A stretch of DNA of 56,525 nucleotides from Gammaproteobacteria bacterium (GCA_029883265.1 JAOUJM010000003.1:1-56525); one strand, 5' to 3'. Shown: positions 6,502 to 32,744, numbered from the stretch's first letter. The notes: generated by a model not told the origin, from the letters alone. Translations and numbers: made by a program.

Positions 6502-7590
6502 ATGGGCATTCGACGTTTTCTACAACATTCCATTCTATTATTGATAGTAAGCACTAGCCTATTAGCGTGTAGTGTGATTTCGCCTGGGAAAAATCAATCG
6601 ACTTTATATTGGCCTGCGGCACCATCGGAGCCACGTTTGGTTTATGAGGCGACACTACGTTCCCCCGCAAGTTTGAAAGACGCTAATCTTGGCGATCGTA
6701 TAAAAGAGCTTATGGGTAAACAGCAGCCCGGTAGCACCGTGTTAATGAATAAACCATATGATGTTGCAGCGAAAGATGGGCTCGTGGTGGTTAGCGATAC
6801 TCGCATGGGTTTAGTGCATGTCTATGACGTGCCGCGTCGTCGTATGTTTCCTATCGGTTGGCGCGGTGAAGCGGTGTTGCAAAAACCTTTGGGTGTAGCG
6901 GTGGACAACGCAAGAAATATTTATGTTGCCGATGCGGGTCATCAAGCCATTTTAGTTTTTAACATGCTGGGTCATTTCAAACGCACTATCGGGCGCAATA
7001 GTGGATTTTCGCGTTTGAGTGATGTTGTGGTTTCGCCTTCCGGTGATCGGGTCTATGCTGTTGATCGAGGCGGTATCGATTCGGATAATCATCGCATTAC
7101 TGTATTTTCGCAACACGGAGAAATGTTGTTTCGCATTGGTCAGCGTGGTGTTGGTGACGGTGAATTTAATCATCCAATTCAAGCGGCCTTGGATAAGCAA
7201 GGCAATCTTTATGTGTTAGACGCAGGTAATTTTCGTGTTCAAGTGTTTGCTCGTGACGGTCGTTTTTTGCGGGCTTGGGGTAAGCCGGGAAAACATTTAG
7301 GTAATCTTGCAAGACCGCGTGGTTTAGCAGTGGATAATCAAAATCATGTTTATGTGACCGATGCGGTTTATCAAAATTTTCAAATTTTTGATGAGTACGG
7401 ACATTTATTGCTACCTGTTGGCGAAGGTGCACGTGAAGATGCACCTGGGCAATATATTTTACCGGCGGGAATTGCAGTAGACGAAACCGATCGTATTTAT
7501 ATTGTTGATCAAATCATGCAGAAGGTCGACGTCATGCGTTTATTAAGTGATAAAGAGCGCACCATGATGGCGGGTGAAGCGCAAAATTAA
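6502..7590 (+). CDS. NHL-repeat beta-propeller lipoprotein
   Basis: 362 residues with a lipoprotein signal ending in the lipobox LLAC (Cys about residue 23). The mature part starts with WPAAPSEPRLVYEA, a sequence typical of propeller lipoproteins found beside multiheme cytochromes. Six NHL-type blades follow, for example PYDVAAKDGLVVVSDT, PLGVAVDNARNIYVADAG and PRGLAVDNQNHVYVTDA, so a six-bladed propeller is expected. Likely tethered in the outer membrane or facing the periplasm. It is the first gene of the cytochrome cluster and has two relatives at 15214 and 16249. Propellers of this kind are probably scaffolds rather than enzymes; that is inference from their recurrent neighbours. Confidence 0.85.
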   Translation: MGIRRFLQHSILLLIVSTSLLACSVISPGKNQSTLYWPAAPSEPRLVYEATLRSPASLKDANLGDRIKELMGKQQPGSTVLMNKPYDVAAKDGLVVVSDTRMGLVHVYDVPRRRMFPIGWRGEAVLQKPLGVAVDNARNIYVADAGHQAILVFNMLGHFKRTIGRNSGFSRLSDVVVSPSGDRVYAVDRGGIDSDNHRITVFSQHGEMLFRIGQRGVGDGEFNHPIQAALDKQGNLYVLDAGNFRVQVFARDGRFLRAWGKPGKHLGNLARPRGLAVDNQNHVYVTDAVYQNFQIFDEYGHLLLPVGEGAREDAPGQYILPAGIAVDETDRIYIVDQIMQKVDVMRLLSDKERTMMAGEAQN

Positions 7591-7649
7591 AAATCCTGGT
7601 GCTTGCTTAAACTAGCCATGTCGTCTAGCATATGGATTTTCCGCATATT

Positions 7650-7685
7650 TGTGAGTTTTAGTCGCGTCTGGGAGCGCTTGTCACA
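7650..7685. promoter_or_regulatory. TGTGA...TCACA inverted repeat upstream of tetraheme cytochrome
   Basis: TTTGTGA (7648-7654) and TCACAAA (7681-7687) form an inverted repeat with 26 bases between them, about 95 bases before the cytochrome start. Similar pairs precede the cytochrome genes at 11817 and 38024. A shared regulator is possible, but the spacing differs between copies. Confidence 0.3.
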
Positions 7686-7779
7686 AAGCTGCAAATGAAT
7701 TCAGGATGTGCTGGTTCGCACCAGTCGTAGTCGATGTTGGGTCGTGACCCGCACAAAGCGAAGGATGCCAGGGGGGGAG

Positions 7780-8661
7780 ATGAACAAAAGCCCAAGTGCA
7801 AAACTCAAGATATTGGGTGTGTTAATCGTGTGTGCCTTAGGTGCCAGTGTTGCCATTGTGGCGTGGGCCGGTATTGCCGAGTCTGTGCATAATTTAGGAA
7901 CCACAGGTAACAGCTTAAGCGCCAATGGTGGTGCCCGTAATGAGTTCACCGGGACCTCTGAAATCTGTGTTTTTTGTCATACACCTCACGGTGGTGATGC
8001 CTCTGCAGCGGTACCGCTTTGGAATCGTAATTTAAATAATCCGGCCAACTATTCTACTTATGATCAATTAGGTACATCCACACTAGATGCGCAAGTAGCA
8101 GAAGTCGGTTCGGTTTCTATCGGCTGCTTATCTTGTCATGACGGTACCATGGCATTAGACGCCATGATTAACGAGCCAGGTTCAGGCGCCGATAATCCAG
8201 GATTTTCTGCAGGCACCTGGACTGGCGATGATACCGTCGGCCCTGCCGATGGTCGTTTAGCGCCGGGCATTGTTCAAAATCTTGGAACCGACTTGACTAA
8301 TGACCATCCTATCGGCATGCAATACGCCGGTGGTGGTGTTAGTGCTTCAACGCCAGTGTTGCCACAAGGTGAAACCGTTGATCCTGACTTCGCGCCAGTG
8401 CTTTTTGAAGTGCGAAATGGTCGTTATCAATGGTGGGTAGATAAAGATTGGCGCACGGGCGGCGATGGTGATCGCAGTAAAACTGATGTGCAGCTTTATA
8501 CGCGTACCTCATCTAATGGTTATGCCGGACAATCGCAACAAGAGCCATTTGTTGAATGCGCTAGTTGCCATGATCCGCATACCACGGAAAATCCAACGTT
8601 CTTGCGAATTAGTAATACCGACACGCCGAGTGGTCTTTGTTTGACCTGTCACGTGAAGTAA
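7780..8661 (+). CDS. Tetraheme c-type cytochrome, doubled-CXXCH type
   Basis: 293 residues with an N-terminal hydrophobic export segment (LGVLIVCALGASVAIVAWAG) and four heme-attachment motifs: CVFCH followed by TPHGG, CLSCH followed by DGT, CASCH followed by DPH, and a C-terminal CLTCHVK. The block NDHPIGMQYA between motifs two and three is shared with the cytochromes at 17319 and 38024, so these three are paralogues. Probably a periplasmic or surface electron carrier. ATG 7780 is preferred because the signal peptide then starts normally; in-frame ATG 7765 and GTG 7708 would add residues without obvious purpose. The prolyl isomerase gene follows within about 20 bases. Confidence 0.9.
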   Translation: MNKSPSAKLKILGVLIVCALGASVAIVAWAGIAESVHNLGTTGNSLSANGGARNEFTGTSEICVFCHTPHGGDASAAVPLWNRNLNNPANYSTYDQLGTSTLDAQVAEVGSVSIGCLSCHDGTMALDAMINEPGSGADNPGFSAGTWTGDDTVGPADGRLAPGIVQNLGTDLTNDHPIGMQYAGGGVSASTPVLPQGETVDPDFAPVLFEVRNGRYQWWVDKDWRTGGDGDRSKTDVQLYTRTSSNGYAGQSQQEPFVECASCHDPHTTENPTFLRISNTDTPSGLCLTCHVK

Positions 8662-8681
8662 AGCGGTTTAAGGTGTCAATC

Positions 8682-9686
8682 GTGAAACGTTTTCCTTTGG
8701 AGTTGAAAAAACTAAGCACGACAGTCCTGTTGTTAGCTTTTGCATTAAGTATATTCAGCTTGTCAGCAAGTGCTAACAAACCCGAATATCAGCAAAAAGA
8801 ACTTGCGGCTGACGTATTCGCGCGTGTGGGTGATGAGACCATTCCTATGAAAACTTTCGAGGCCGCCTATCGAGACGGCATTCGCAAGCGGTTTTATCAT
8901 GGAAAAATTCCACAAGCACAGCTTGATGCATTTAAGACAGAAGTTTCACAAAACTTGATTGATCAAGTGTTGTTAATTGCAGAAGCAAAACGCCGCGGCA
9001 TCAGTGTCGACAAACAAAATATTCAAGCGCAAATTGATGTTTATGAAAAACGTTATAGTCAATCAGAGCATTGGAAAACACACAAAGCCAGCATGATTGA
9101 AAACCTCACACGGGTATTTGCTGAGCAAGACTTATTACAAAAACTTGAAACCCAAGTGCGACAAATACCTGAGCCTAGTGAGCAAGATATTAAAACGTTT
9201 TACCAAAACAATCCTGCATTGTTTACCACGCCAGCACGTGACCGTTTATCCTTGATTTTGTTAAAAGTAGCGCCGTCATCAGCTGGTGATGTTTGGCAAG
9301 CGGCTTATGAGGAAGCGCAGCAATTGATTTCGCGTTTAAATAAAGGTGCTGACTTTGCTCAATTGGCGCGCATTCATTCTGGGGATGAAAGTGCAAGCAA
9401 AGGTGGTGATATGGGTTTTCTGCACCAAGGTATGTTGGCCAAACCCGCGCAAGCGGTAGTTGATGCACTACAACCCGGTGAAGTTTCCATGCCCGTCGGA
9501 TTGCTCAGCGGAGTTGCTATTTTTCGACTTGATGCACGGCAAGCAGCCGAGTTGAATCAATTGAATAAAGTGGCGGAACGGGCGAAGCAGCTATATCAAC
9601 GCCAAGCGCAGGAAAATGCGTGGGCAGATTTAAAAGAACGCTTAAGGTTAAACGCAGCAGTAGCAATTAATAGCGCTGCATACTAG
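8682..9686 (+). CDS. PpiC-type peptidyl-prolyl cis-trans isomerase, exported
   Basis: 334 residues: an N-terminal signal peptide (ending near SLSASA), a SurA/PrsA-like helical chaperone domain containing FARVGDETIPM and the LIDQVLLIAEAKRRGI helix, then a parvulin (PpiC) rotamase domain in roughly the last third with LILLKVAP, FAQLARIHSGDES, GGDMGFL and ALQPGEVS. It should act in the periplasm on secreted substrates. Such isomerases recur in multiheme cytochrome clusters and are presumed to help fold the cytochromes or the barrel. The GTG at 8682 has AAGG nine bases upstream and gives a clean signal peptide; a TTG at 8637 inside the previous gene is much less likely. Confidence 0.88.
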   Translation: MKRFPLELKKLSTTVLLLAFALSIFSLSASANKPEYQQKELAADVFARVGDETIPMKTFEAAYRDGIRKRFYHGKIPQAQLDAFKTEVSQNLIDQVLLIAEAKRRGISVDKQNIQAQIDVYEKRYSQSEHWKTHKASMIENLTRVFAEQDLLQKLETQVRQIPEPSEQDIKTFYQNNPALFTTPARDRLSLILLKVAPSSAGDVWQAAYEEAQQLISRLNKGADFAQLARIHSGDESASKGGDMGFLHQGMLAKPAQAVVDALQPGEVSMPVGLLSGVAIFRLDARQAAELNQLNKVAERAKQLYQRQAQENAWADLKERLRLNAAVAINSAAY

Positions 9687-9720
9687 CGTTTACGAGGAAA
9701 GGGAGAAGAGGGAGTACTGA

Positions 9721-11574
9721 ATGCATATAATGCATGCAGTCGTTGTGTCCATGAATAAGTTTGCGCATACAAATTTCTTGGCCGTACTAGTCGGCGTTTT
9801 GTTGTTGAGTCAAAATGGCTTGCTGCAAGCGCGTGCGCTTTCTCTTGGTGTGGGCGGAAATATAGGATATTTTCATACCTTCAATCAAGCTGAGGGCGGC
9901 ACACGTTCAGCCAGTGATAATTTCTTAATGGCAATTCAAGCCAATGGTTTTGTGATGGAGCCGTGGCTGTTGAAGGTTGACGGTAATCTAGTTGCCAACT
10001 TAAATAAAAGCGGCACAGCCTACGCTAATAACGAGTCCCATGTGCTTTCAGGTGGTATCAATCTTCACCTGTTTTCCCAAAGCCGATTCCCTAATGTGGT
10101 TTCTTATCGTCGCTCAACACGAGCCTCAGACATTGATGTCAGTCTGAAACGAGTACAAGATGAAAAATCCTTAGGTGAGCTAGTCGCGGTTGCAATGGAT
10201 GATGATTATCTTGCGACGAATGTTTCGGTGCGCCAGGGTTTGTTATTGCCGTCGGGAAATCGTTTTGATTTATGGTATAGCAATAGTGTTCGAGGCTCGG
10301 GTTTGTTTGGTATGGTTGAAGACGAGAACCTGGGCGGAAAATTCAAAGCGCGTTGGTTGGGACATAATCTTTATGTGGATGTCATTAATCAAACTCAATC
10401 GCATAGTTTGTCACCTAAGTTATCTGATAATTTCACATTCTCGTTAATGCATAATTTCTTTCCTAGTAGTGATTATTATATTAAGTCCTTGGTGAGCCAT
10501 TACCAAGTTGACAATAAAACCGAAGAGAGTAACGGTTTTTTTGTGGCGAATAGCAATACTGCATTAACGCAATATCACAGCATGTTTTATTGGCGCGCGC
10601 CGTATAAACCTTATTCTGTCTCAGGTTCCATGCGTTTTCACCGCAAGGAACGTGATACCGGGTTTGATAATAATGAAACTGATCAGAAAAATGCTTTTGG
10701 TTCTTTGACATTTGATTGGGAATTGAATCGTCGAGTGCGCATGTCAATGGCCGGAAATGTTTCGGTGATTGATTCTGATCAAGACAATAGTGCGGGTGGC
10801 ACAGCGCAATTGTTATTGTCCTATCGTTCAGGGCAAAATATTTTTGGCTGGCTCGGTGGTTTGACGCATAGTTGGTATATGGATGGTGGTATTGGTAATC
10901 GTGTCGAAGCACATTATGACGACGCGGATATAGCATCGACATTTAATGCAGGTGTGGGTCATCACGGCAATAAACAATGGCTCACGGGTAACCGCTCCAG
11001 TGCACGTTTGGGTTTTAGCCAAAGTGTAAGAGCGTATACCACGCCATTAAATACGCTAAGTGAAGTAAATGCCGACGTGGACAGTCTGGATTTAACCCAT
11101 ACAGCAAGTTTGAGTCATCAAGCAGGAATCCGTAAAATACGCTCGTATTCCCAGATTACGTTTATGGATTCACGCAAACTGTTAGAAGACTTTGATATTC
11201 AGGTGGTTAATGCACAGGCGTCGGGAAGTTATCCATTAAACCGTCTGAGTAGCGCGGGATTGAATGCGGCATTGCAATCGACGCGTAGGAACACAGAACA
11301 AAGCCAATCCGAAGGCTTTCAAACATCGATTACCGCGCAAATTAACTACCAACACGCACGGTTGTTTGGTATATATAAGCTCAAGTTACGTGGCAAATAT
11401 GATGTTTCTGCTAACTTGACTGAACGATTTGGAAATCGTTACCGGAACGATGCTGAAATGCGCCTCAGCTATCTTCTTGGTAAATTGTCGACTGCTGTTG
11501 TTGGTCGCGTAATAAAAAATGATTCAGGTTCGCCTGCATTAATGGGTATGGTTCACTTGAATCGACAGTTCTAG
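9721..11574 (+). CDS. Large outer-membrane beta-barrel protein, putative conduit porin
   Basis: 617 residues with a signal peptide (VLVGVLLLSQNGLLQARA) and a long succession of alternating hydrophobic/polar strands ending in the classic outer-membrane signature MVHLNRQF with terminal Phe. Aromatic girdle residues are frequent. No TonB box or plug is present. It lies directly downstream of the isomerase and between cytochrome genes, the position taken by the barrel in porin-cytochrome conduits of other bacteria (MtrB/PioB and Geobacter Omb types). It shows no clear sequence signature of the MtrB family, such as an N-terminal CxxC, so its equivalence is inferred from context. ATG at 9721 with AGGGAG upstream; ATG 9730 and 9751 are alternatives. 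Confidence 0.75.
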   Translation: MHIMHAVVVSMNKFAHTNFLAVLVGVLLLSQNGLLQARALSLGVGGNIGYFHTFNQAEGGTRSASDNFLMAIQANGFVMEPWLLKVDGNLVANLNKSGTAYANNESHVLSGGINLHLFSQSRFPNVVSYRRSTRASDIDVSLKRVQDEKSLGELVAVAMDDDYLATNVSVRQGLLLPSGNRFDLWYSNSVRGSGLFGMVEDENLGGKFKARWLGHNLYVDVINQTQSHSLSPKLSDNFTFSLMHNFFPSSDYYIKSLVSHYQVDNKTEESNGFFVANSNTALTQYHSMFYWRAPYKPYSVSGSMRFHRKERDTGFDNNETDQKNAFGSLTFDWELNRRVRMSMAGNVSVIDSDQDNSAGGTAQLLLSYRSGQNIFGWLGGLTHSWYMDGGIGNRVEAHYDDADIASTFNAGVGHHGNKQWLTGNRSSARLGFSQSVRAYTTPLNTLSEVNADVDSLDLTHTASLSHQAGIRKIRSYSQITFMDSRKLLEDFDIQVVNAQASGSYPLNRLSSAGLNAALQSTRRNTEQSQSEGFQTSITAQINYQHARLFGIYKLKLRGKYDVSANLTERFGNRYRNDAEMRLSYLLGKLSTAVVGRVIKNDSGSPALMGMVHLNRQF

Positions 11575-11645
11575 CCTTAGAGGGGGGATCTTCTTAGGGT
11601 TATTGTAGGGTTTTATCGGTTTTTTCCATAAGACCTAGCTGATAA

Positions 11646-11677
11646 TGTGACGCTTTGGTTGATAAAAGCTTGTCACA
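11646..11677. promoter_or_regulatory. TGTGA...TCACA inverted repeat upstream of triheme cytochrome
   Basis: TGTGAC (11646-11651) and GTCACA (11672-11677), with CTTT and AAAG further inside, form an inverted repeat with 22 bases between the pentamers. It lies about 140 bases before the start at 11817. The 10-mer GCTTGTCACA is shared with the element at 7650-7685. Confidence 0.3.
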
Positions 11678-11816
11678 CGGTATCATGTCCCACTGCAACA
11701 CGGGTTGATGCGCAAGCTAAAAAAACGGGCTTTGAAACGCTTGTCGTCAGAAGATGCTAAGAAGAGCATGTTCAAAGTTTATTAAATTAGTCAAAAATTA
11801 AACGGAGAATGTAGTT

Positions 11817-12242
11817 ATGAATGCCAATACGGAGCGTACTGCTGCTTGGAAGCTGGCCCTCTTAGGGGTCATAGTTTGGGTAGGGGCGACTTTAATGCCG
11901 CAGCCTGCACAAGCGGAATATGCTGATGTCGTTATAAACAACTATGCCGATGCGGCCGGTATGCGGCCTGTGGTTTTCCCGCATTGGTATCACCGTATTC
12001 GTTTTCGTTGCAAAGTTTGTCACGCAGACTTGGGCTTTAAATTTAAAGCCGGCGGAAACAAAATCACTATGGCAAAGATAATTGATGGTAAGTTCTGTGG
12101 AGCTTGTCACAATGGTGAAATTTCTTGGTCAGTTGAGAACTGCGGCATGTGTCATTCCGGTATTCCTGGAACACCAACGCATATCGCAGGAAGCACAGTT
12201 CAGCAATTGGTCGCACCGGCCTATAAAGCGCTGAAGAAGTAA
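11817..12242 (+). CDS. c7-type triheme cytochrome
   Basis: 141 residues with a signal segment (LALLGVIVWVGATLMPQPAQA) and three heme motifs CKVCH, CGACH and CGMCH in the spacing of the c(7)-type triheme domain. The axial His residues are seen in VVFPHWYHRIRFRC. Predicted periplasmic electron carrier. Compared with the related proteins at 12267 and 14627 it lacks their long N-terminal region and has HADLGFKFKAGG between motifs. ATG preceded by CGGAGA. Start of a new transcription segment after a 242-base gap, followed 24 bases later by the next cytochrome. Confidence 0.9.
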   Translation: MNANTERTAAWKLALLGVIVWVGATLMPQPAQAEYADVVINNYADAAGMRPVVFPHWYHRIRFRCKVCHADLGFKFKAGGNKITMAKIIDGKFCGACHNGEISWSVENCGMCHSGIPGTPTHIAGSTVQQLVAPAYKALKK

Positions 12243-12266
12243 ACATCGGACACAAGGAAAATCGTC

Positions 12267-12971
12267 ATGAAAAATACGATCAAGAAAATTACTTTAGCTG
12301 CAAGTCTGGTGGCCTTACCCTTCATCGTAAGCGCAGCTGACTCGCAAGGTGGAAGCTTAATGATGGCAGCAACAACCGCTGTTAGCTCTGCGGAGATTAC
12401 AGGTTCTGTGCCTGAAAAATTAAGCGTATCTAATGCAAACGTATTCAATCGTTTGTTGAAGAAAGAGAAGGATCCCAATGCGGCTCCGCCGGATGATGGT
12501 TATCATGATCCAGCTAATGATGCGACCACTGCATTGCAACCACCAAAAGTGGCTTATGAAGGTTTGCCAACTACTGAGTTTGGTAATCGCGTTGACTGGG
12601 TAAAAGCATTGGATAGTGGGAAATTGAATCCTCGTTATGATCGCCAGGACCCAGATGTTGAACCATTTGTGATGGATCTTGATATTGTGCGTCCAGTTAA
12701 AGCGTCTGTGCCTGATGTGGTATTCCCACATAAGCCGCATACGCAATGGTTGCACTGTTCAAACTGTCATCCAAAGATTTTCGTACCACAGCGTTTATCC
12801 AATCAAATAAACATGTCTGCGATTATTCTTGGACAAAAATGCGGTGTTTGTCATGGAAAAGTATCTTTTCCACCGACCACCAAGTCCTGCAAAAAATGTC
12901 ACTCGAAAGAAAAACCAGCCAACTGGAAGCCACCTTTGAGTGAAGCAAGTGTGAAAAATCCCTGGCGTTAA
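12267..12971 (+). CDS. c7-type triheme cytochrome with extended N-terminus
   Basis: 234 residues. After a signal peptide (cleavage after IVSAA) comes a roughly 100-residue region with GYHDPANDATTALQPP and WVKALDSGKLNPR, then the triheme domain: VVFPHKPHTQWLHCSNCH, CGVCHGKVSFPP and CKKCH. The same pre-domain and heme domain recur in the protein at 14627, so the two are close paralogues. The pre-domain motif HDP-x-N...LQPP may bind a partner in this cluster; that is inference. ATG with AAGGA upstream. A strong hairpin lies 21 bases after the stop. Confidence 0.9.
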   Translation: MKNTIKKITLAASLVALPFIVSAADSQGGSLMMAATTAVSSAEITGSVPEKLSVSNANVFNRLLKKEKDPNAAPPDDGYHDPANDATTALQPPKVAYEGLPTTEFGNRVDWVKALDSGKLNPRYDRQDPDVEPFVMDLDIVRPVKASVPDVVFPHKPHTQWLHCSNCHPKIFVPQRLSNQINMSAIILGQKCGVCHGKVSFPPTTKSCKKCHSKEKPANWKPPLSEASVKNPWR

Positions 12972-12991
12972 ACTGGGATAATCTTAAATCG

Positions 12992-13028
12992 AAATACATC
13001 TCTCCGTTGGAGAGGTGTATTTCATTTT
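12992..13028 (+). terminator. Hairpin between cytochrome and cupredoxin lipoprotein genes
   Basis: AAATACATCTCTCC (12992-13005) pairs with GGAGAGGTGTATTT (13009-13022) over 14 bp with one G-T pair and a three-base loop, followed by CATTTTAG. The T-run is weak, so this may be a leaky terminator or an mRNA-stabilising hairpin that lowers expression of downstream genes relative to the cytochromes. Confidence 0.55.
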
Positions 13029-13086
13029 AGGGAAATTGAAACATCTAAGGTTATAGCTTGTAGCGAGTTGTTCACAGGAAGATTTT

Positions 13087-14625
13087 ATGCAAAGTGCACG
13101 CATGGTGAAGGGAATAGTCGTTGTAGGGCTAATGCTTGCGATTAGTGGCTGTAGCAAATTAGATCAATTTTTTTTTGGCAAACCCGCTGAAGAAAAAATA
13201 ATAAAAGTTGAAAAGAAGCCTGTAGAAAAAAAACCAGCCAAGAAAAAAGAATTATCTGAAGACGAAGATCTTAATATTGTTTCAACACCTGTCGTAGCAG
13301 AAACCACTACGATTGTTAAAGAAGAACTAAGTGCGCCCCCTAGTGAAGTCAAAGCTGAAACAAATGAGTCAGCTAAAACCGAAGCAAAACCAAGTGTCGA
13401 ACTACCAAAAGACCCTAATACTTTTTTAGTTCAAGCAGGTGTTAAAGATGTGAATCACCCAAGCTTCGGTACCGGAGATAAACGTGGTTTTATCGTCAAT
13501 GGACAACAAGGAAAACCCTTGGTTCTAGTGCGTGGGCAAGAATATACCTTCCAAGTACGAACCGGAGTGCAGCATGATTTCTATATAAGCACTAATCCCA
13601 TGGGTTGGGGTGCAGCAGCGTTCCTTGATGGTGTTAAAGGTCAATTTACCTATAATGGCGATGTCAGTTTCATTCCGACAAAAGAAGCGCCTGGTGAATT
13701 GTATTACCAATGTCGTAATCACAAAGCCATGGGTGGCAAATTGCTGTTAGTCAATGACGAAGTTGAACAAAAGAGTGTATTGCAGCAGGTTGCGAAAGCA
13801 GTTGAGACTGGGTTGGCGCAGCGTCAACAACTCTCTGCCGAAAAAAACTTAGATCCTGCGAAGGTCAAGCAGAAAGTCAGTTATGCAGGTATGCTTATTC
13901 AGTTTAAGAGCAAAGATTTGGATGCAGCAACGGCAACTGAACTCAACACGAAATTTTCCCATGCAAACACCGCATACAACACGAATGATTTCGCAACTGC
14001 ATTAAAGCTCGCAACGGAAGTCGCAGATTTTTTTAATGCTAAAAAAGCACAAGAACCGGTCGGTCCTAGCGAAGAAGAAATAGCAGAACAGAAAGCGGAA
14101 TATGAAGAATTGATCGCTAGCATAAATAGTTTTCGCGACTCCCATATTATTGTTCACAAGCAAGCCGAACTTAATGACAAAGGCCCAAAGCCGCAAGATT
14201 ACGATAAGAAAAAAGTTAAACAATTAGAAAAAGAAGCAGATGAGTTTGCAAAAAGGGAAGATTACAAACAAGCGATTAGCACTTTAAGAAAAGCAGAACG
14301 TGAAATCACCTTGGCCTTGAACGCAATGTTGAATCAGCAAACTTTGGTTTACGAATTAAAGTTTGACACACCTAAAGATGAATTTGAATATGAAGTTAAA
14401 CGCTACAAGAGTTATGAAGAGTTAATTCCGGTTGCTTTAGAAGTTAAGAAGCCCAAGCCTGGTTCAATCAAGTTAATGGAAATGTTTAAAAAGAAAGCGA
14501 CCTTTTTCGCAGAAAAAGCTCAAGAGTCTGCCGATAAGGACAACTATCCAGAAGCACTGGTAATTATTAAAGACGCAACTAAAGAGATACGCCGGGGGCT
14601 AATGTCTTTAGGGGTGATGATGTAG
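13087..14625 (+). CDS. Cupredoxin-domain lipoprotein with helical C-terminus
   Basis: 512 residues. The lipobox ISGC puts the lipidated Cys at about residue 22, followed by a charged Lys/Glu linker. Residues about 114-225 form a cupredoxin-like domain: FIVNGQQGKPLVLVRGQEY, then QHDF with His163, and YYQCRNHKAMGG with Cys209, His212 and Met215. This is the His-Cys-His-Met set of a type-1 copper site. The remaining half is Lys/Glu-rich and helical, with repeating TPR-like segments (FATALKLATEVADFF, YKQAISTLRKAEREI, YPEALVIIKDATKEI). Predicted membrane-tethered copper electron carrier or scaffold within the cytochrome cluster. The combination of a blue-copper-like site with a helical repeat tail is unusual. 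Co-directional with cytochromes on both sides; the next gene begins one base after its stop. Confidence 0.8.
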   Translation: MQSARMVKGIVVVGLMLAISGCSKLDQFFFGKPAEEKIIKVEKKPVEKKPAKKKELSEDEDLNIVSTPVVAETTTIVKEELSAPPSEVKAETNESAKTEAKPSVELPKDPNTFLVQAGVKDVNHPSFGTGDKRGFIVNGQQGKPLVLVRGQEYTFQVRTGVQHDFYISTNPMGWGAAAFLDGVKGQFTYNGDVSFIPTKEAPGELYYQCRNHKAMGGKLLLVNDEVEQKSVLQQVAKAVETGLAQRQQLSAEKNLDPAKVKQKVSYAGMLIQFKSKDLDAATATELNTKFSHANTAYNTNDFATALKLATEVADFFNAKKAQEPVGPSEEEIAEQKAEYEELIASINSFRDSHIIVHKQAELNDKGPKPQDYDKKKVKQLEKEADEFAKREDYKQAISTLRKAEREITLALNAMLNQQTLVYELKFDTPKDEFEYEVKRYKSYEELIPVALEVKKPKPGSIKLMEMFKKKATFFAEKAQESADKDNYPEALVIIKDATKEIRRGLMSLGVMM

Positions 14626-14626
14626 C

Positions 14627-15259
14627 ATGAAAAAATTAGAGAGAGTTAATATGCGGACAACATTACCGAAAAAAACAAGTCGATTGATTAGTTTATCAGT
14701 CAGTCTTGTTTTGATTTCTATGTTTTCTTCCTTAGTCCATAGCGAGGCAAAGCCGAGTAAGGGGCAATATGAGGAAAGTTCGGGGCATTTTCAGTTACAT
14801 GGTGATGTTGTGCCAATAGCTGAAGACGGAATTCATGATCCAAATAACGAAGCGGTGCAAATTCTTCAGCCGCCGGCCGAAGCGATGTTGAACTTTCCGC
14901 GAGATAAACGCGGCATTATCAATTGGGTTGATACGCTAGACAAGGGATTAATTAATCCGCGTACCGGTTTAACTGGAACCGAAAAAATGCATGCGGTGGA
15001 TTTTGATGTCATTTTTCAAAATACCGCCTCCATGCCTTATGTGCGTTTTCCACATCGGCCGCATACGATTTGGTTAACGTGTAAGAATTGTCATCCAGGA
15101 ATATTTATTCCACAGCGCGGCTCCAATCCTGTCACGATGGCAGCGATTATGCGAGGCGAGTATTGTGGTGTGTGTCATGGAAAAGTGGCGTTTCCGCCCT
15201 ATGAGTGTGATAGATGTCATCGAGAACCGAGAAAAAGCGTAGGTTTGCGTTACAAATAA
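14627..15259 (+). CDS. c7-type triheme cytochrome with extended N-terminus
   Basis: 210 residues, paralogous to the protein at 12267. Signal segment, then GIHDPNNEAVQILQPP and WVDTLDKGLINPR, then the triheme domain with VRFPHRPHTIWLTCKNCH, CGVCHGKVAFPP and CDRCH. ATG 14627 lies one base after the upstream stop, implying translational coupling; ATG 14651 (MRTTLPKK) with GAGAG upstream also gives a good signal peptide and may be the true start. Predicted periplasmic. Confidence 0.88.
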   Translation: MKKLERVNMRTTLPKKTSRLISLSVSLVLISMFSSLVHSEAKPSKGQYEESSGHFQLHGDVVPIAEDGIHDPNNEAVQILQPPAEAMLNFPRDKRGIINWVDTLDKGLINPRTGLTGTEKMHAVDFDVIFQNTASMPYVRFPHRPHTIWLTCKNCHPGIFIPQRGSNPVTMAAIMRGEYCGVCHGKVAFPPYECDRCHREPRKSVGLRYK

Positions 15260-16248
15260 GCAAGCTTTGCTCTGTTACTTTAATAATGTTTTGCACGATT
15301 ACCTCGGCGCAAGCTCAGCCTGTGGCGGTGAAGCAATCCGCGTCTTTGCGGTTTGTCGAAATTATCAAAACCCTCGCAAATACCACGCATCCGATATTGG
15401 AAGCGTTTATTGGGCAAAACACGATTACGCTCAAACGACCTGTAGCCGCAGCTATCCGTAATAATGAATTATTCATTGCGGATGCTGAATTAGGTTTATT
15501 GATCCGCTATGACCTGAGCCGGCGAGATTCAGCGGTCTTGTATGGCGCTGGCGATAAAGCGCTAGGTGAAATCAGTGATGTCTTTGTTATGCAAGATGGT
15601 CAATCGGTGTTTGTCACAGATACCTTGGGTAAACGCGTGCTTTGGTTTGATCGCCAAGGCAATTTGAAAAAAGTGATTAAACACGGTCCTAATATTTCCC
15701 GTCCCATTGCAATTAGCGTGAATGAAAGCGCCAAAGAAATTTATGTGGCAGATGAGGTTTATAGTCATATTGTTGTTTTTGATTATAACGGCAAGCCGAT
15801 TCGTGGCATGGGTGGTCGTGGCGAAGGTGAAGGAAAATTTCGAATTATTACGGATATGATTCCAGACGGTGACGGTTTTCTTGTAAGTGATCGCATTGAG
15901 TTTAGCGTGCAATCCCTAGATGCGGCGGGACGTTATGTCTCTCATTTTGGTGATGAACATTTGATGTTCCCTACGGCCATTGCTAAAGATCAATTTGGGC
16001 GCATTTTTGTCAGCGATAAAGGTGATAGTCGCATAAAGGTTTTCAAAGACGGGCAATTGCTTGAAGATATTGGCCGTAACGGGTATGGCGAAGGTGAGTT
16101 TCGTTATATTAGCGATATGAAAATCGCAAACGATAAGTTATATGTAATGGATAGTTTAAATGGACGTATCCAGGTATTTGACATACAAGCGCCCCGTACA
16201 GCAAAAGCAGTATCGGATAAATCCGTAAAGGTGGGTTTGTTTCAGTAA
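15214..16248 (+). CDS. NHL-repeat beta-propeller protein, exported
   Basis: 344 residues. The signal peptide LCSVTLIMFCTITSAQAQ is followed by a propeller with blades such as PVAAAIRNNELFIADAELG, PIAISVNESAKEIYVADE, MFPTAIAKDQFGRIFVSD and ISDMKIANDKLYVMDSLNG. There is no lipobox, so it is probably soluble in the periplasm, unlike the other two propellers here. It overlaps the upstream cytochrome gene by 46 bases and ends directly at the next start (TAA then ATG), so it is tightly coupled. The later ATG at 15286 would destroy the signal peptide. Confidence 0.82.
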   Translation: MSSRTEKKRRFALQISKLCSVTLIMFCTITSAQAQPVAVKQSASLRFVEIIKTLANTTHPILEAFIGQNTITLKRPVAAAIRNNELFIADAELGLLIRYDLSRRDSAVLYGAGDKALGEISDVFVMQDGQSVFVTDTLGKRVLWFDRQGNLKKVIKHGPNISRPIAISVNESAKEIYVADEVYSHIVVFDYNGKPIRGMGGRGEGEGKFRIITDMIPDGDGFLVSDRIEFSVQSLDAAGRYVSHFGDEHLMFPTAIAKDQFGRIFVSDKGDSRIKVFKDGQLLEDIGRNGYGEGEFRYISDMKIANDKLYVMDSLNGRIQVFDIQAPRTAKAVSDKSVKVGLFQ

Positions 16249-17310
16249 ATGGATAAATTACATTTGCTGGTTGTTGTTCTGATATTGTTATTAGGTGCAT
16301 GTAGCAATCAGCCGAAGAAGTTGGTTTATCATACAACAACAGAACAAAAACTTTGGCCGCAAGCACCTGATGAGCCACGTTTTGTTTTTGTTGGGCAATT
16401 GACGGGTGAAAATAATTTTTATGCACTAGCACCGGAAAAAAACTATTTAAAAAAGTTCGCTTTTTGGTTAGTAGGGCTGGTAGCTGGCGAAATTGAAATC
16501 GAGTTATTGCATCGTCCTCAAACCGGTATAGTGGATGGTGACGGCAGAGTTTATGTAAGTGATGTTGGGCGTCGAGGGCTTGTGGTATTTGATCCCATTA
16601 AGGGTCGTTTACAAGTGTGGCAGCAAGCCACGGCAATGAAGACCTTTATTACGCCAATTGGCGTCGTAAAAATTGGCAATGACTTGTTTGTTGCTGACGC
16701 TGATTTGGCTATGGTTGTTCGTTTGAACAACAAAGGTGAGCCGCAAGCAAGTATTGGCTATGGCCAATTGGAACGACCGACAGGTTTGGCTTTTGATGAA
16801 ACGTCTCAACATTTGTATGTGGCGGACTCGAAAAGCCATCAGATAAAGATTTTTAATCTGGCAGGCGATCTGGTTGACACTATTGGGCAGAAGGGTTCGC
16901 ACGCAGGTGAATTTAATGGGCCGACATTTATAACGATTGCAAACCAGCAATTGTATGTGGCAGATAGTTTAAATGCACGAATCCAGATTTTGGATTTAGG
17001 TGGTAAACCCATTCGCCAGTTTGGGCGTCGTGGGAAATATATTGGCGACATGCCACAGCCAAAAGGTTTGGCAGTGGATGCTAATGGATTGATTTATGTG
17101 ATTGAATCTTTTTTTGATCATATTTTAGTGTTCAACCAAAAAGGTGAATTTCTATTACCCATTGGTGGGCACGGACAGCAAGCCGGTTTGTTTAATCACC
17201 CCAGTGGTGTATGGACTGGCAAGAATAATTTAATTTATGTTGCAGACATGATGAATAGTCGTGTACAAAGTTTTCAATATTTGAATAAGCAACAAAACGA
17301 AGGGATGTGA
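16249..17310 (+). CDS. NHL-repeat beta-propeller lipoprotein
   Basis: 353 residues with lipobox LGAC (Cys about residue 18) and, in the mature protein, LWPQAPDEPRFVFVGQL, the same lead-in as the lipoprotein at 6502. NHL blades include PTGLAFDETSQHLYVADS, PTFITIANQQLYVADSLNA and PKGLAVDANGLIYVIES. Expected to be anchored to a membrane leaflet near the cytochromes. Its stop overlaps the alternative GTG start of the next gene, which supports an operon 13087-19772. Role as scaffold or assembly factor is inferred. Confidence 0.85.
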   Translation: MDKLHLLVVVLILLLGACSNQPKKLVYHTTTEQKLWPQAPDEPRFVFVGQLTGENNFYALAPEKNYLKKFAFWLVGLVAGEIEIELLHRPQTGIVDGDGRVYVSDVGRRGLVVFDPIKGRLQVWQQATAMKTFITPIGVVKIGNDLFVADADLAMVVRLNNKGEPQASIGYGQLERPTGLAFDETSQHLYVADSKSHQIKIFNLAGDLVDTIGQKGSHAGEFNGPTFITIANQQLYVADSLNARIQILDLGGKPIRQFGRRGKYIGDMPQPKGLAVDANGLIYVIESFFDHILVFNQKGEFLLPIGGHGQQAGLFNHPSGVWTGKNNLIYVADMMNSRVQSFQYLNKQQNEGM

Positions 17311-17318
17311 GTAGGAAA

Positions 17319-19772
17319 ATGGTTCGGGCAAAGCAAACTACGCTGGTTTTTTTCTCGTTTGTTATTTTATGCATAGTGAGCCAAAACCTTTATGCCGCTC
17401 AAGCCTCCTTGGCGCCTGATCGTATTTCAGATGTAGTGAACACTAAACATAATTTTGCCACTGCGATTAACGGGCCGATATTGCCCACAGGTTCAACTCG
17501 AACGGTCGAAGCGACCAGTGAACAAGAAGTTTGTGTGTTTTGTCATATACCTCATTTCGCCCCTGATGGTGTTGTTGCACCTTTATGGAATCGAGCAATA
17601 AGCATCGCGAGCTACACTAACTACACTTCGTCAAGCCTTGATGCCATAGCGACTGATCCCGGGATAAGTTCAAAACTGTGTTTATCCTGTCATGATGGCA
17701 CACTAGCCATGGGTGCCTTAAACATGTCAGGTGGTCAGGCGTATAATATTTCTATATCTCATGCGACCTTAGCCGGCACACCTGATCAATTTGGTTCGGC
17801 TAACAATGAAGCCGTAACTATCGCCACGGCAAATACGATTTCCATGGTCGGCGGTGTAACTACTATGCCGGTTGGCTCTGGTGTTAACACAGGTTTTACT
17901 TCCAATATCGGTACCGATTTAACAAATGATCATCCGATAGGTATCACTTACAATACCGATTTGGCCAATCTCAATTTTGTACTTGATGCCGATCTCTACG
18001 GTGACGGGGAGCTTGTGGATCCCGGTTCAGTTGATTATATAAAATCGCGTCAAGGTCGTAGTGCAGTAGGAACAGGTGCAACTGATACTCATATGTACGC
18101 ACCGCTAGAAGCAGGTAAGGTTGAATGTGTGACCTGTCACGATCCACATATACGGGGTTCTGGGGCCGATGTGGATGTTAATATCAAATTTTTACGTCTG
18201 AATCGTTTTCAAAAAGCGCAGCCAATCGAAGGGGCCGCATTTTCAGCAGCAAATGATGTTGGTTGTATCGCCTGTCATCAAAAAACTGGATGGGCGGACT
18301 CAATTCATGCGAATTTTACTCATGCCAGTGCAGCGTATAACGACACCGCTGCAAATATCCGAGAATTTCCGCTAAATACCACTGTAGCAGAATCATCTTG
18401 TTTGGCCTGTCACGATGCTCATACAGTACAAGGTGCAAAAACACTTCTGCGCGAAGGCACCGATACCTTACTTGGTAGTATTCATAATGGTGGCAATTCA
18501 GCTCAGGAAGAGACTTGTTTTCAATGTCACGGAACGGCTAACAATTTACAATCAGCGGCAAAAGATATCGAATCCGTAATACTCTTAACTGGTGGACATA
18601 GTGGGATTTCAATCACTGCGGAAGCTCACAATATTAATAAAACAGCGCAAATAGTTTCAGCCACAAAGGTGGCTCCTTCAGATTCTCATGACGACAGAAT
18701 TGCTACAAGTGGAAACCATATCGAGCTCGAAATAGATTTTACTGGTGTCAATCGGCATATTGAATGCGCGGATTGTCACCACAGTCATCGTATGACCAAG
18801 AATACGACAATCGCAAACAATCCAGCTATTGCTGATTCGAAGGCTACCCATGAGCATGACACCGGAATACACAGCAATATAATTTCTGGTTCGTTGCGAG
18901 GCACTTGGGGCGTCGAGCCACATAGTTGGGCGAGCGATAATTTTGATTTGGCTGATGACGCCATTCGGTATGACGTTAAACAAGGTAATCCTGTTGGTGC
19001 TGCAACAACTGATGTAACGGATCGACATGTTACGCGAGAGTATCAAATCTGTATGCGTTGCCATTCGAATTTTGCTTATACTGCAGGCGCAGGCTTGAGT
19101 AACCCCGCCCAGGAATTTCGCCCGATAGACAATGCTGCGGCTAATAACCATCGCAGTTGGCATCCGGTCGTAGGGCAAACTAATCGAAATAATACCTATA
19201 GCGCCAATTTTGAAGCGGCATTTGCAACAGGGGTTGGGTCGCAAACCATGTATTGTTCTGACTGTCATGCGAGTTCAAATATTTTCGACCCGAAAGGTGC
19301 TCACGGTTCAGGAGCTACAGGAAAATTGTTGATTGCGAATAAAGGCGAGGCGTTTTGTACGTCCTGTCATAAAGCGAGTGATTACACTAGCGCAGGTGTA
19401 AGTACGTTTACTGGTGGTGGCAGTTTTAATGCGAGTGGTTTCGCATGTTCTGGCACATGTGTCACCGATGGTAGCTTGTCAGGTGCTCTTCAATCTCAAT
19501 ATTCGACGAATCTGCATGTGTTTCACGATGCGAATCCAAGTCAGCCTAATGGAGATATTAGTTGTGACAATTGCCATGTGGCATTAGCCCACGGTTGGCA
19601 AAATAAAGCCTTGTTGGTGAATTTAACGGATGCTGGAGAGGTTGCAAACGCGGGCGCATCGCCATACACCAATCTACCTTATTACGAAAATTCGACTTTA
19701 TTCATTAACGCCATGCAGACCCCAGCCACGTGGACAAAAGTGAGTTGTGGTACAAATGCAGGTTGTCATTAG
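17319..19772 (+). CDS. Large multiheme cytochrome c, 11 CxxCH motifs
   Basis: 817 residues with a signal segment (VFFSFVILCIVSQNLYA). Canonical heme motifs in order: CVFCH, CLSCH, CVTCH, CIACH, CLACH, CFQCH, CADCH, CMRCH, CSDCH, CTSCH and CDNCH. A twelfth, non-canonical CGTNAGCH (CX5CH) forms the very C-terminus. The first part, with IPH, DGTLAMG, NDHPIGITY and DPH blocks, is homologous to the tetraheme protein at 7780. Size and heme number suit an outer-membrane-associated or extracellular cytochrome, or a filament subunit; localisation is inferred. No NrfA, HAO or OTR signature such as CxxCK was seen. ATG 17319 is chosen; GTG 17307, overlapping the previous stop, is the alternative. Last gene of the cluster. 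Confidence 0.88.
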   Translation: MVRAKQTTLVFFSFVILCIVSQNLYAAQASLAPDRISDVVNTKHNFATAINGPILPTGSTRTVEATSEQEVCVFCHIPHFAPDGVVAPLWNRAISIASYTNYTSSSLDAIATDPGISSKLCLSCHDGTLAMGALNMSGGQAYNISISHATLAGTPDQFGSANNEAVTIATANTISMVGGVTTMPVGSGVNTGFTSNIGTDLTNDHPIGITYNTDLANLNFVLDADLYGDGELVDPGSVDYIKSRQGRSAVGTGATDTHMYAPLEAGKVECVTCHDPHIRGSGADVDVNIKFLRLNRFQKAQPIEGAAFSAANDVGCIACHQKTGWADSIHANFTHASAAYNDTAANIREFPLNTTVAESSCLACHDAHTVQGAKTLLREGTDTLLGSIHNGGNSAQEETCFQCHGTANNLQSAAKDIESVILLTGGHSGISITAEAHNINKTAQIVSATKVAPSDSHDDRIATSGNHIELEIDFTGVNRHIECADCHHSHRMTKNTTIANNPAIADSKATHEHDTGIHSNIISGSLRGTWGVEPHSWASDNFDLADDAIRYDVKQGNPVGAATTDVTDRHVTREYQICMRCHSNFAYTAGAGLSNPAQEFRPIDNAAANNHRSWHPVVGQTNRNNTYSANFEAAFATGVGSQTMYCSDCHASSNIFDPKGAHGSGATGKLLIANKGEAFCTSCHKASDYTSAGVSTFTGGGSFNASGFACSGTCVTDGSLSGALQSQYSTNLHVFHDANPSQPNGDISCDNCHVALAHGWQNKALLVNLTDAGEVANAGASPYTNLPYYENSTLFINAMQTPATWTKVSCGTNAGCH

Positions 19773-19952
19773 TTCATTTGTATCTATTGGGTTTCTCTAA
19801 CTTCCTGTTATTTTGGTAAATATTGCGAAATTTCCTGGATTTCTTAAATGGTGAAATCCTAGTCTAATCAGTCGGTTTAATGCTAAAATGCGCGGCTTGT
19901 GTCGGCGCATAGGCGTCTAAAAATAAATTATCCCTTAATGGAGTATGTTTTA

Positions 19953-20585
19953 ATGCTGGAAGCCGCCGGTTTAAAATGTGTGCGCGGTGACAAAACGTTG
20001 TTTGATGGCCTCGGGTTCACCTTAGGTTCAGGACAACTGCTTCATATTAAAGGCGAAAATGGCAGCGGTAAGACCTCATTACTGCGCATGTTATGTGGTT
20101 TAGTGGAACCTGCTGAAGGAGAAATTCGTTGGCAGGGTGAAAACGCCTTAAAATTGGCGGAAGACTATTTTTCGCAATTACTTTATATCGGTCACTCGCC
20201 AGGGATAAAAGCAGACCTATCTGCACTGGAAAATTTGAAAGTCACATGTGCCTTAAGTGGCACGCCGGTGAGTGAAGATGATGCTTGGGGATCGTTGGTA
20301 AAAATAGGTCTGGGTGGACGTGAGGACTTACCAACTAAAGTCTTGTCGCAAGGACAAAAACGAAGAGTGGCTTTAGCACGAATGTTACTTTCTAAGGCAC
20401 CTTTATGGATTTTAGACGAACCGTTTACCGCTTTAGATGTCAAAGCGGTGGCAGAACTAGAAGATGTGATTGCTACACATCTGGATAATGAGGGAATGGT
20501 GGTTTTAACCACCCATCAAGCGATCAAACATTTAGCGGGTCGCGAGACCATACTGGACTTGAGTAGCCGCGAGGCGACTGCCTAG
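19953..20585 (+). CDS. ccmA: Heme exporter ATP-binding protein CcmA
   Basis: 210 residues, the normal size. ABC ATPase of the CcmABCD complex that releases holo-CcmE during cytochrome c maturation. Walker A GENGSGKTSLLR, signature LSQGQKRRVALARMLL, Walker B LWILDEPFTALD and the H-loop TTHQ are all present. ATG 19953 has GGAG nine bases upstream; the in-frame ATG 19938 is less likely. First gene of a compact nine-gene ccm operon placed directly after the cytochrome cluster. Confidence 0.95.
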   Translation: MLEAAGLKCVRGDKTLFDGLGFTLGSGQLLHIKGENGSGKTSLLRMLCGLVEPAEGEIRWQGENALKLAEDYFSQLLYIGHSPGIKADLSALENLKVTCALSGTPVSEDDAWGSLVKIGLGGREDLPTKVLSQGQKRRVALARMLLSKAPLWILDEPFTALDVKAVAELEDVIATHLDNEGMVVLTTHQAIKHLAGRETILDLSSREATA

Positions 20586-21253
20586 TGTTTGCGGTTATTC
20601 GCAGTCTCTTATGGCGGGAAATGACACTGGCGATCCGGCGACGGGCGGAAGTGCTAACGACCTTGTTCTTTTTTGTCATTGTGGTCAGTTTGTTTCCCTT
20701 AGGCGTGGGGCCTGAGATTGATACCCTGAGAGAAATTGCGCCGGGTGTTTTATGGGTCGCCGCGTTATTAGCGTCGATGTTGTCGCTCAATCGTTTATTC
20801 GCTGACGATTATATGGATGGGACATTGGAGCAAATGTTGTTAGCGTCGCAGCCATTGAGTATTTTAGTTTTGACAAAAATACTCTCGCATTGGTTATTGA
20901 CCGGGTTACCTTTGGTTTTGATTTCTCCGGTGCTTGGGATGCAACTCGGCTTGGATATGGAATCCTTGCTGATAATGGTCGTGACATTATTATTAGGAAC
21001 ACCCGTGCTCAGTTTGATCGGTGCGGTGGGCGCTGGTTTAACTTTAGGTGTGCGGGGTGGCGGGGTGTTATTAGCTTTATTGATTTTGCCACTCTATGTG
21101 CCCGTACTGATTTTTGGTTCTGGTGCGGTTGAAGCCGCGAGAACTGGTATGGAAATACAAGCCCATTTGTCATTACTGGGTATATTTTTGGTTTTGGCTT
21201 TAGTATTAGCACCTATCGGTGCCGCTAAGGCATTAAAAATTGCGTTGGACTAG
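20585..21253 (+). CDS. ccmB: Heme exporter membrane protein CcmB
   Basis: 222 residues with six hydrophobic helices and the family opening LLWREMTLAIRRRAEVLTTL, followed by FPLGVGPE and APGVLWVAALLA. Membrane partner of CcmA. The GTG start at 20585 overlaps the last base of the ccmA stop, so translation is coupled. Confidence 0.95.
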   Translation: MFAVIRSLLWREMTLAIRRRAEVLTTLFFFVIVVSLFPLGVGPEIDTLREIAPGVLWVAALLASMLSLNRLFADDYMDGTLEQMLLASQPLSILVLTKILSHWLLTGLPLVLISPVLGMQLGLDMESLLIMVVTLLLGTPVLSLIGAVGAGLTLGVRGGGVLLALLILPLYVPVLIFGSGAVEAARTGMEIQAHLSLLGIFLVLALVLAPIGAAKALKIALD

Positions 21254-21260
21254 TATTTTA

Positions 21261-22013
21261 ATGAATATTTTTACTAAAGCATTTTGGCTTCAACTATCGA
21301 CGCCTAAGAATTTCTATCCTATCGCGGGTAAGCTTATTCCATGGTTTTTAATCTCAGCCACTCTGCTTGCGGTGATTGGTTTGTATTATAGTTTTTTTGT
21401 CGCACCGGTTGATTACCAGCAAGGCAACAGCTATCGAATTCTTTTTATCCATGTACCAACGGCGTGGATGTCTATGTTTATTTATGTGGTTATGTGTATC
21501 TATGCGATTCTTGGATTAGTATTAAAAACTCGTTTATCCGATTGGATGGCCTTGGCGTTAGCACCAACGGGTGCGGCTATGACATTTCTGGCGCTATGGA
21601 CCGGCTCGTTTTGGGGTAAGCCCACCTGGGGCACCTATTGGATTTGGGATGCGCGCTTAACCTCTGAGCTCATTTTATTATTTCTTTATCTTGGTTTTAT
21701 TTCCCTAAATTCAGCGATTGATGATCCACGTCGTGCATCTCGCGCCAGCGCGTTGCTGGCATTGGTTGGTATTATTAACATTCCAATTATTTATTTTTCA
21801 GTGAAATGGTGGAATACCTTGCATCAAGGTATGTCAGTCACTGTTGATAAGGCACCGACCATGGCAACTTCTATGTTTACGGCAATGATGCTTTTAACGT
21901 TTGCTTTTTGGCTCTATACCATCGCTGTTGCATTGATGCGGGTGCGTAATATTATTCTTGAGCGCGAGAGCCAAACTGCATGGGTGCAAGATTTAGTGAA
22001 AGGTAAAAACTGA
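21261..22013 (+). CDS. ccmC: Heme transporter/handling protein CcmC
   Basis: 250 residues, six membrane helices. It contains the tryptophan-rich WWD heme-handling motif WGTYWIWDARLTSELILLF and the conserved His residues in FIHVPTAWMS and NTLHQGMSV that ligate heme. CcmC loads heme onto CcmE. ATG at 21261, eight bases after the ccmB stop; a TTG at 21240 inside ccmB is rejected. Its stop overlaps the ccmD start (TGATGG). Confidence 0.95.
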   Translation: MNIFTKAFWLQLSTPKNFYPIAGKLIPWFLISATLLAVIGLYYSFFVAPVDYQQGNSYRILFIHVPTAWMSMFIYVVMCIYAILGLVLKTRLSDWMALALAPTGAAMTFLALWTGSFWGKPTWGTYWIWDARLTSELILLFLYLGFISLNSAIDDPRRASRASALLALVGIINIPIIYFSVKWWNTLHQGMSVTVDKAPTMATSMFTAMMLLTFAFWLYTIAVALMRVRNIILERESQTAWVQDLVKGKN

Positions 22014-22171
22014 TGGCGGAATTATTAGCAGATAAACATGCCTTTTATATCGCCATGACTTATGGTGCAACTTTTTTGTATATCGTTATCGAATTGATAT
22101 TACTCACTCGTAGCAAACAAAGTTTATTGAAACGCATTACCCGCATGGGTCGCTTAAAAGAGAGAAACTAA
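22013..22171 (+). CDS. ccmD: Heme exporter small subunit CcmD
   Basis: A 52-residue protein starting at the ATG that overlaps the ccmC stop. It has one membrane helix (YGATFLYIVIELILLT) followed by a basic tail (LLKRITRMGRLKERN), exactly the CcmD pattern. CcmD stabilises the CcmABC-CcmE complex. Identified from the frame between ccmC and ccmE rather than from long-ORF evidence. Confidence 0.9.
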   Translation: MAELLADKHAFYIAMTYGATFLYIVIELILLTRSKQSLLKRITRMGRLKERN

Positions 22172-22172
22172 G

Positions 22173-22616
22173 ATGAAAGCACGTCATAAACGTTTATCAA
22201 TTGTCATCGGTGGTTTGGGTGTTTTAGGATTGCTCACCTGGTTAGCGTTAAATGTTTTTGAAAGCAACATGATGTTGTTTCAAAGCCCTTCAGATGTAGT
22301 CGCAGGTAAAGCGCCCCAAGGAAAATCGTTTCGTTTAGGCGGCTTGGTTGAAGAAGGCACACTGGAACGTGAAAATGATGGTTTAACCGTGCATTTTATT
22401 GTGACCGATAAAGTTGAAAGCATTCCCGTTACCTATACCGGCATTCTTCCGGATTTGTTTCGTGAAGGACAAGGCGTGGTTGCACAAGGAAAACTAGAAA
22501 ACGGGGTGTTTACGGCGCATGAAGTTTTAGCCAAACATGATGAAGAATACATGTCACCGGAAGTGGCCGACGCTCTAAAACGCGCTGAAGAAAAACCCAA
22601 TGGAGGGAGTATCTAA
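22173..22616 (+). CDS. ccmE: Cytochrome c maturation heme chaperone CcmE
   Basis: 147 residues: an N-terminal anchor helix (LSIVIGGLGVLGLLTWLAL), then a periplasmic OB-fold domain with FRLGGLVEEGTL and VTYTGILPDLFREGQGVVAQG. The heme-binding motif is AKHDEEYMSPEV, where the His covalently binds heme and Tyr is the axial ligand. Starts one base after ccmD. Confidence 0.95.
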   Translation: MKARHKRLSIVIGGLGVLGLLTWLALNVFESNMMLFQSPSDVVAGKAPQGKSFRLGGLVEEGTLERENDGLTVHFIVTDKVESIPVTYTGILPDLFREGQGVVAQGKLENGVFTAHEVLAKHDEEYMSPEVADALKRAEEKPNGGSI

Positions 22617-25611: not shown

Positions 25612-25614
25612 TCA

Positions 25615-27556: not shown

Positions 27557-27563
27557 GCGAACG

Positions 27564-29039: not shown

Positions 29040-29050
29040 GAGGAAATTTT

Positions 29051-32723: not shown

Positions 32724-32744
32724 GGTATAGATGCGCGATACGAT

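Follow-up and report, generated by a model that had tools for sequence, protein, structure and literature searches.

Which electron-transfer system is encoded by the cytochrome-rich gene cluster at positions 6502-19772 of a gammaproteobacterial contig (JAOUJM010000003.1), and by what route would electrons pass along it? The stretch analysed, referred to here as the window, is one whole contig of 56,525 bases; the assembly to which it belongs comprises 5.27 Mb in 520 contigs, with a completeness of 98.9%. By gene content and order, the cluster is a well-preserved copy of the published uetABCDEFGHIJ operon, whose name stands for "undecaheme electron transfer" (Uet). Its products probably form an inward conduit in an uncultured, probably autotrophic gammaproteobacterium, leading from UetA to UetJ and UetC and then to the triheme cytochromes and UetF, possibly with a UetA filament. 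Sequence comparison and modelling add three putative structural features to Uet: an OmcE-type UetA, a UetA module within UetJ and a cupredoxin domain in UetF. None of the three was found in the Uet literature examined, which did not include the original 2022 Uet description.

Identity and conservation of the Uet cluster

Eleven plus strand genes, all co-directional, occupy positions 6502-19772 (Table 1). The original prediction, made from the DNA sequence of this region, had the direction and the named genes right but counted ten; its total of 24 canonical CxxCH sites agrees with the in-frame count, which is 4 in UetA, 3 each in UetD, UetE and UetG, and 11 in UetJ. A further CxxCH motif at 7842, in the tetraheme gene region, is out of frame. 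The whole window contains 33 heme motifs at the DNA level compared with 5.3 expected from dinucleotide shuffles (largest shuffle 13), so the density of heme motifs is not due to chance. Pfam searches confirmed the NHL, PpiC rotamase (with a SurA-like N-terminus), Cytochrome_C7 and Paired_CXXCH families. Neighbouring genes overlap or lie close together apart from three larger gaps, of 192 bases before uetA, 242 bases separating uetC from uetD and 115 bases separating uetE from uetF; the spacing is like that of an operon or a few linked transcripts. Promoter and terminator scans of the window returned site numbers no higher than those in shuffles.

The Uet pathway of the Tenderiales was described in a study of Gallionellaceae as the undecaheme UetJ, the tetraheme UetA, the trihemes UetDEG, the isomerase UetB, the NHL proteins UetHI and the barrel UetC (PMC10734462), and a review gives uetABCDEFGHIJ as conserved in this order of bacteria (PMC12575090). 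Uet is also reported in Gallionella (PMC10734462), and UetJ with its porin in the Leptothrix group (PMC13386937). The window genes match the published roles and order position by position, which identifies the cluster as Uet. All ten genes A-J are in the fixed order, UetJ has 11 CxxCH sites and the reported heme numbers are the same. The claim that the gene set matches no known locus is therefore rejected on the grounds of both literature and synteny. In Candidatus Tenderia electrophaga, Tel_16515 to 16530, which lie ahead of the undecaheme gene Tel_16545, encode three trihemes with a TPR protein between the second and the third (PMC5371394). Position F is thus a TPR protein in that report, whereas here it carries a cupredoxin-like domain, and the window's family differs further from Candidatus Tenderia in having an NHL lipoprotein gene before uetA and cytochrome c maturation (ccm) genes immediately downstream of uetJ.

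When named genomes were searched with a UetE alignment, 230 loci were found and 80 of them fetched; several of these share their records with the family and class genomes described below. UetE identity (best segment) ranges from 51 to 82% across the 80. Around all uetE loci fetched, which come from about 90 other gammaproteobacterial genomes and include a Candidatus Tenderia contig (L080), the cluster is co-linear apart from the interruptions given below. In the fetched loci, all 65 UetA open reading frames (ORFs) encode 4 hemes, and 50 UetJ ORFs encode 11, the remainder being mostly fragments at contig ends. Each of the 12 further family genomes examined has the barrel, which also occurs here and there in the class, where a barrel profile matched 42 of 369 sampled genomes; a single-sequence barrel scan of genome contigs gave no match. 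The A-J order is kept in 15 regions from family and class genomes as far as contig ends permit. The order breaks off at contig ends and is otherwise interrupted where the barrel has diverged (L048, L114), where uetB was not matched (L054, L061 to L063) and at two loci lacking uetJ. Loss of the barrel in L048 and L114 was considered and rejected, since an ORF of 629 or 666 amino acids occupies its position and makes divergence the likelier explanation. In the loci examined the barrel stands within the A-J order and not beside unrelated genes, in agreement with the original prediction of an electron-transfer cluster.

Table 1 Genes of the Uet cluster and directly adjoining genes, with positions counted from the first base of the window
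Gene	Product	Position	Strand	Evidence
NHL gene	NHL beta-propeller lipoprotein, upstream of uetA and outside the ten named uet genes	6502..7590	+	Pfam NHL 7e-31; lipobox LLAC
uetA	Exported tetraheme cytochrome, OmcE homologue by profile	7780..8661	+	Profile match to PDB 7tfs, 9yuq
uetB	Periplasmic SurA/PpiC-type peptidyl-prolyl isomerase	8637..9686	+	Rotamase 5e-16, SurA_N_3 9e-11; synteny
uetC	Outer-membrane beta barrel, ~28 strands in model	9721..11574	+	AlphaFold2 model, Foldseek, VIA-align
uetD	Periplasmic c7-type triheme cytochrome	11817..12242	+	TIGR04257 3e-18; chain 3ov0 1e-43
uetE	Periplasmic triheme cytochrome with N-terminal extension	12267..12971	+	TIGR04257 2e-16
uetF	Lipoprotein, predicted cupredoxin domain (~residues 109-222) and C-terminal helical domain	13087..14625	+	Model, fold searches, ligands
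uetG	Periplasmic triheme cytochrome	14627..15259	+	TIGR04257 3.5e-18
uetH	Secreted NHL beta-propeller	15214..16248	+	DUF5128 9e-15, NHL 1e-11; synteny
uetI	NHL beta-propeller lipoprotein	16249..17310	+	NHL 9e-25; lipobox LLGAC; synteny
uetJ	Undecaheme cytochrome	17307..19772	+	11 CxxCH; UetA/OmcE-like N-terminal module
ccmABC, ccmE-ccmI	Cytochrome c maturation, directly downstream	19899..26931	+	ORF translations; ccm also in L013, L014, L021

UetA and the undecaheme cytochrome UetJ

The UetA reading frame starts more likely at ATG 7780, behind GGGGGGAG, than at GTG 7708. UetA matched chain 7tfs of OmcE from Geobacter sulfurreducens at 6.6e-21 as a single sequence and at E=8e-24 as a profile, and the profile match to a second cytochrome in the PDB, 9yuq, was slightly better (2e-25). 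In the alignment with OmcE, His falls on His at NTKH, CHTPH, NDHP and CHxxH, which are the candidate distal ligands. In 66 UetA sequences, the CxxCH sites and the distal His residues H36, H69, H175 and H266 (counted from the N at 7783) show 100% conservation. Of the features of an OmcE-type filament, UetA thus has the homologous tetraheme subunit with all its distal His residues. These comparisons show UetA to be a homologue of the nanowire cytochrome OmcE over all four hemes, and the synteny ties an OmcE-type cytochrome to the same conserved operon at about 90 loci in Gammaproteobacteria. UetA is ~60 residues longer than OmcE (292 versus 232 in the compared chain), and OmcE polymerises, as UetA may. 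One heme in OmcE, as in OmcS, takes a His ligand from the neighbouring subunit (PMC9473688). Elsewhere in the window (38024-39151, plus strand), a separate secreted cytochrome with five CxxCH sites has an OmcE-like pattern (9yuq 4e-12, OmcE 2e-9) and lies alone between an ABC transporter gene and a ThiF/MoeB-like gene.

All 11 CxxCH sites of UetJ are conserved at 100% in 53 sequences. The UetA profile aligned with the N-terminal part of UetJ (residues ~40-330) at an hhalign E=1.9e-48 over 212 columns that cover all four hemes, and UetJ matched OmcE at 1e-12. The C-terminal seven hemes gave only a local motif match to the UetA profile. The profile comparisons show that UetJ combines a complete UetA/OmcE-like module (hemes 1-4) with a separate seven-heme part (hemes 5-11). 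The presence of this module in both proteins suggests that UetJ may dock UetA through the contacts that UetA would use with itself. A further heme at the UetJ C-terminus (CGTNAGCH) was rejected, because conservation of the His there is as low as 10%, even though C814 and C820 do not vary. These two cysteines and C718 lie outside CxxCH sites and are invariant in the 53 sequences.

The same genome contains a second, divergent cluster (L123, G000:C120, 138-11299, minus strand). It encodes a UetA-like tetraheme, an NHL protein, a 669-residue putative barrel, another NHL protein and an 11-heme cytochrome that begins with a UetA-like module; after these come 8-heme, 7-heme, cytochrome b-like and 3-heme membrane proteins. 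Judged by its predicted products, this cluster repeats the pairing of a UetA-like tetraheme with a module-bearing 11-heme cytochrome. At one contig end (L121, G000:C153), an NHL protein is encoded after a five-heme cytochrome resembling UetA, and a fourth nanowire-type triheme is found at another (L122, G000:C73); the two ends are possibly halves of a further cluster.

The UetC barrel, UetF and the triheme cytochromes

UetC had no Pfam or NCBIfam match. An AlphaFold2 model built from 16 sequences has ~28 long strands with short turns (mean predicted local distance difference test score 82.6, predicted template-modelling score 0.63). A Foldseek search of the PDB ranked MtrB of the Mtr complex (6r2q_B) first (E=8e-10, template-modelling score 0.39). 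VIA-align superimposed 475 residues on MtrB, the most among the matches listed, with a Z score of 17.3 that was tied with ordinary porins, so both the ~28 strands and the likeness to MtrB stand as predictions. Synteny together with the predicted fold identifies UetC as the barrel of the cluster, and the models predict a very large, MtrB-like one. The very large barrel predicted for UetC would be a feature common to Uet and to MtrCAB and other porin-cytochrome conduits. In contrast to MtrCAB, the host genome lacks an MtrA/DmsE-family decaheme (TIGR03508) over the curated cut-off; 43 weak matches were found in the genome, only a 20-bit fragment in the cluster, and the cluster cytochromes fall below the MtrA/MtrC family cut-offs. 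Very large multiheme ORFs (1061 to 1677 amino acids) outside this contig were seen among the weak decaheme-family matches (G000:C199, C463, C506, C102).

In the UetF model, an N-terminus of low confidence leads to a cupredoxin-like domain, which is confined to the N-terminal part of the protein; the long remainder is helical. Rusticyanin ranked first in Foldseek (E 7e-4), and the N-domain of Cu-nitrite reductase (Z 10.1) and rusticyanin (Z 9.4) led in VIA-align. Residues H163, C209, H212 and M215 are 99-100% conserved in 72 sequences, so that the domain has both the fold and the His-Cys-His-Met ligands of a type-1 copper cupredoxin. Model and alignment together show that UetF carries a cupredoxin-like, putative type-1 copper site. 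The copper protein had been taken for an addition to the gene set, but a local addition is rejected because UetF and its ligands are conserved throughout the Uet loci, which makes it a constant member of the system.

The "nanowire_3heme" family TIGR04257 matches UetD, UetE and UetG. Chain 3ov0, matched by UetD, is a tetradomain c7 cytochrome that we take to be GSU1996. The alignments show the Uet trihemes to be of the GSU1996 type. They share the c7 pattern of GSU1996/PpcA-type nanowire domains; unlike the four-domain dodecaheme GSU1996, the three Uet trihemes are individual proteins of one domain each, and two of them have an N-terminal extension. Few distal His residues are invariant in each triheme, and each has an invariant Met in the middle loop: M85 in UetD (80 sequences), M183 in UetE (81) and M171 in UetG (67). 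A His-Met heme is known for GSU1996, and such a heme in the trihemes would explain both the scarcity of invariant distal His and the invariant Met.

Probable electron route and competing explanations

The joint presence of a barrel predicted to be MtrB-like and an OmcE-type cytochrome supports the electron-transfer reading of the cluster and the original expectation of a conduit or a filament. In the probable scheme, electrons from Fe(II) minerals, cathodes or other cells would enter via UetA outside the outer membrane, where UetA may be polymerised as OmcE is. UetA would pass them to UetJ, whose UetA-like N-terminal module would serve as the docking subunit and whose other seven hemes would run into the UetC barrel or across it. 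In the periplasm, UetD, UetE and UetG and the copper lipoprotein UetF would relay them toward oxidases and toward reverse electron transport for CO2 fixation. UetB would fold the secreted parts, and the NHL propellers would help in assembly or serve as scaffolds. Heme would be attached by the products of the nearby ccm genes. Inward flow is favoured because the organisms reported to have Uet oxidise Fe(II) or live on cathodes, according to their descriptions (PMC10734462, PMC5371394, PMC13386937), and because the genome has three RuBisCO large-subunit matches and heme-copper oxidases. Uet is a candidate route for autotrophs that take electrons from minerals and electrodes.

For the proposed role of Uet in extracellular electron uptake, the literature examined offers expression data from Candidatus Tenderia (PMC5371394). 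Several points weigh against this scheme. In Candidatus Tenderia the undecaheme gene showed no differential expression between electrode potentials, and the electrode contact was proposed to be Cyc2 in preference (PMC5371394). Loci L110 and L111 carry A-I without an adjacent uetJ. We infer the seat of UetJ in UetC, the polymerisation of UetA, which does not follow from homology to OmcE, and the inward flow; the direction of electrons cannot be read from sequence.

A closed porin-cytochrome conduit that forms no filament is a substantial possibility, though short of an even chance. UetJ, the trihemes or both would occupy UetC in the way that MtrA occupies MtrB, with UetA as a single extracellular cytochrome at the tip. 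The predicted resemblance of UetC to MtrB, the published designation of Uet as a porin-multiheme cytochrome complex (PMC10734462) and the greater length of UetA relative to OmcE fit this arrangement, whereas UetA retains the OmcE heme-ligand pattern, N-terminal His included, and a second UetA-like module is found inside UetJ. More tentatively, UetA would form OmcE-type nanowires in Gammaproteobacteria with UetJ as the anchor: the first subunit of the wire, with its seven hemes reaching into UetC and an unbroken heme chain running from filament to periplasm. How cytochrome nanowires are anchored and assembled is largely unknown (PMC12307469), and an OmcE-type subunit, a module-bearing large cytochrome, a barrel, a foldase and propellers in one operon would make a compact system for nanowire anchoring. 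Syntrophic sulfate reducers likewise have a conduit and putative filament cytochromes in one cassette, as in Oet and OmcKL; by the published description, these consist of other parts than Uet (PMC10553843).

The inward conduit from UetA to UetF has also to be weighed against outward transfer, in which respiratory electrons would be discharged onto minerals or partners, like the Geobacter Omc systems. This is unlikely given the iron-oxidising or cathodic habit described for the carriers and the RuBisCO and terminal oxidases of the host, even though UetA and the trihemes are closest to Geobacter-type proteins among solved structures and a comparable conduit, the Mtr complex, can work both ways (PMC9473688). 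It is quite improbable that UetC mainly exports or assembles UetA and UetJ, helped by UetB and the NHL proteins as its chaperones, while electrons cross elsewhere, for example at Cyc2. A simple conduit would not usually come with an isomerase and three propellers, and the UetC model also resembles the translocation barrel LptD in Foldseek; but MtrB ranked first in that search, and the loci almost always encode an undecaheme and three periplasmic trihemes as well.

The genes around this conduit show their own conservation. The start codon of uetB, which overlaps the end of uetA, is uncertain. The extra NHL lipoprotein upstream of uetA is a possible scaffold or assembly factor, and the order rpe-NHL-uetA is conserved in the window's family. 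In the family loci L013, L014 and L021, where the contig extends far enough, uetJ is followed by the ccm genes. In L110 and L111, uetI is followed by a gene read from sequence as a ResB-like membrane protein and then by ccmABC. Farther downstream in the window, positions 27447-35570 (plus strand) encode a DUF1302 outer-membrane protein, an MMPL/RND transporter, a small protein predicted to be exported and a TPR protein whose end is a likely barrel. Within an insertion of the RND protein, W-x-GN-x-W-V-(N/D)-x-DG occurs four times. At 36358-37812 (minus strand), an ABC transporter ATPase carries a long Trp/Gln/Lys-rich C-terminal tail beyond its DrrA-like domain.

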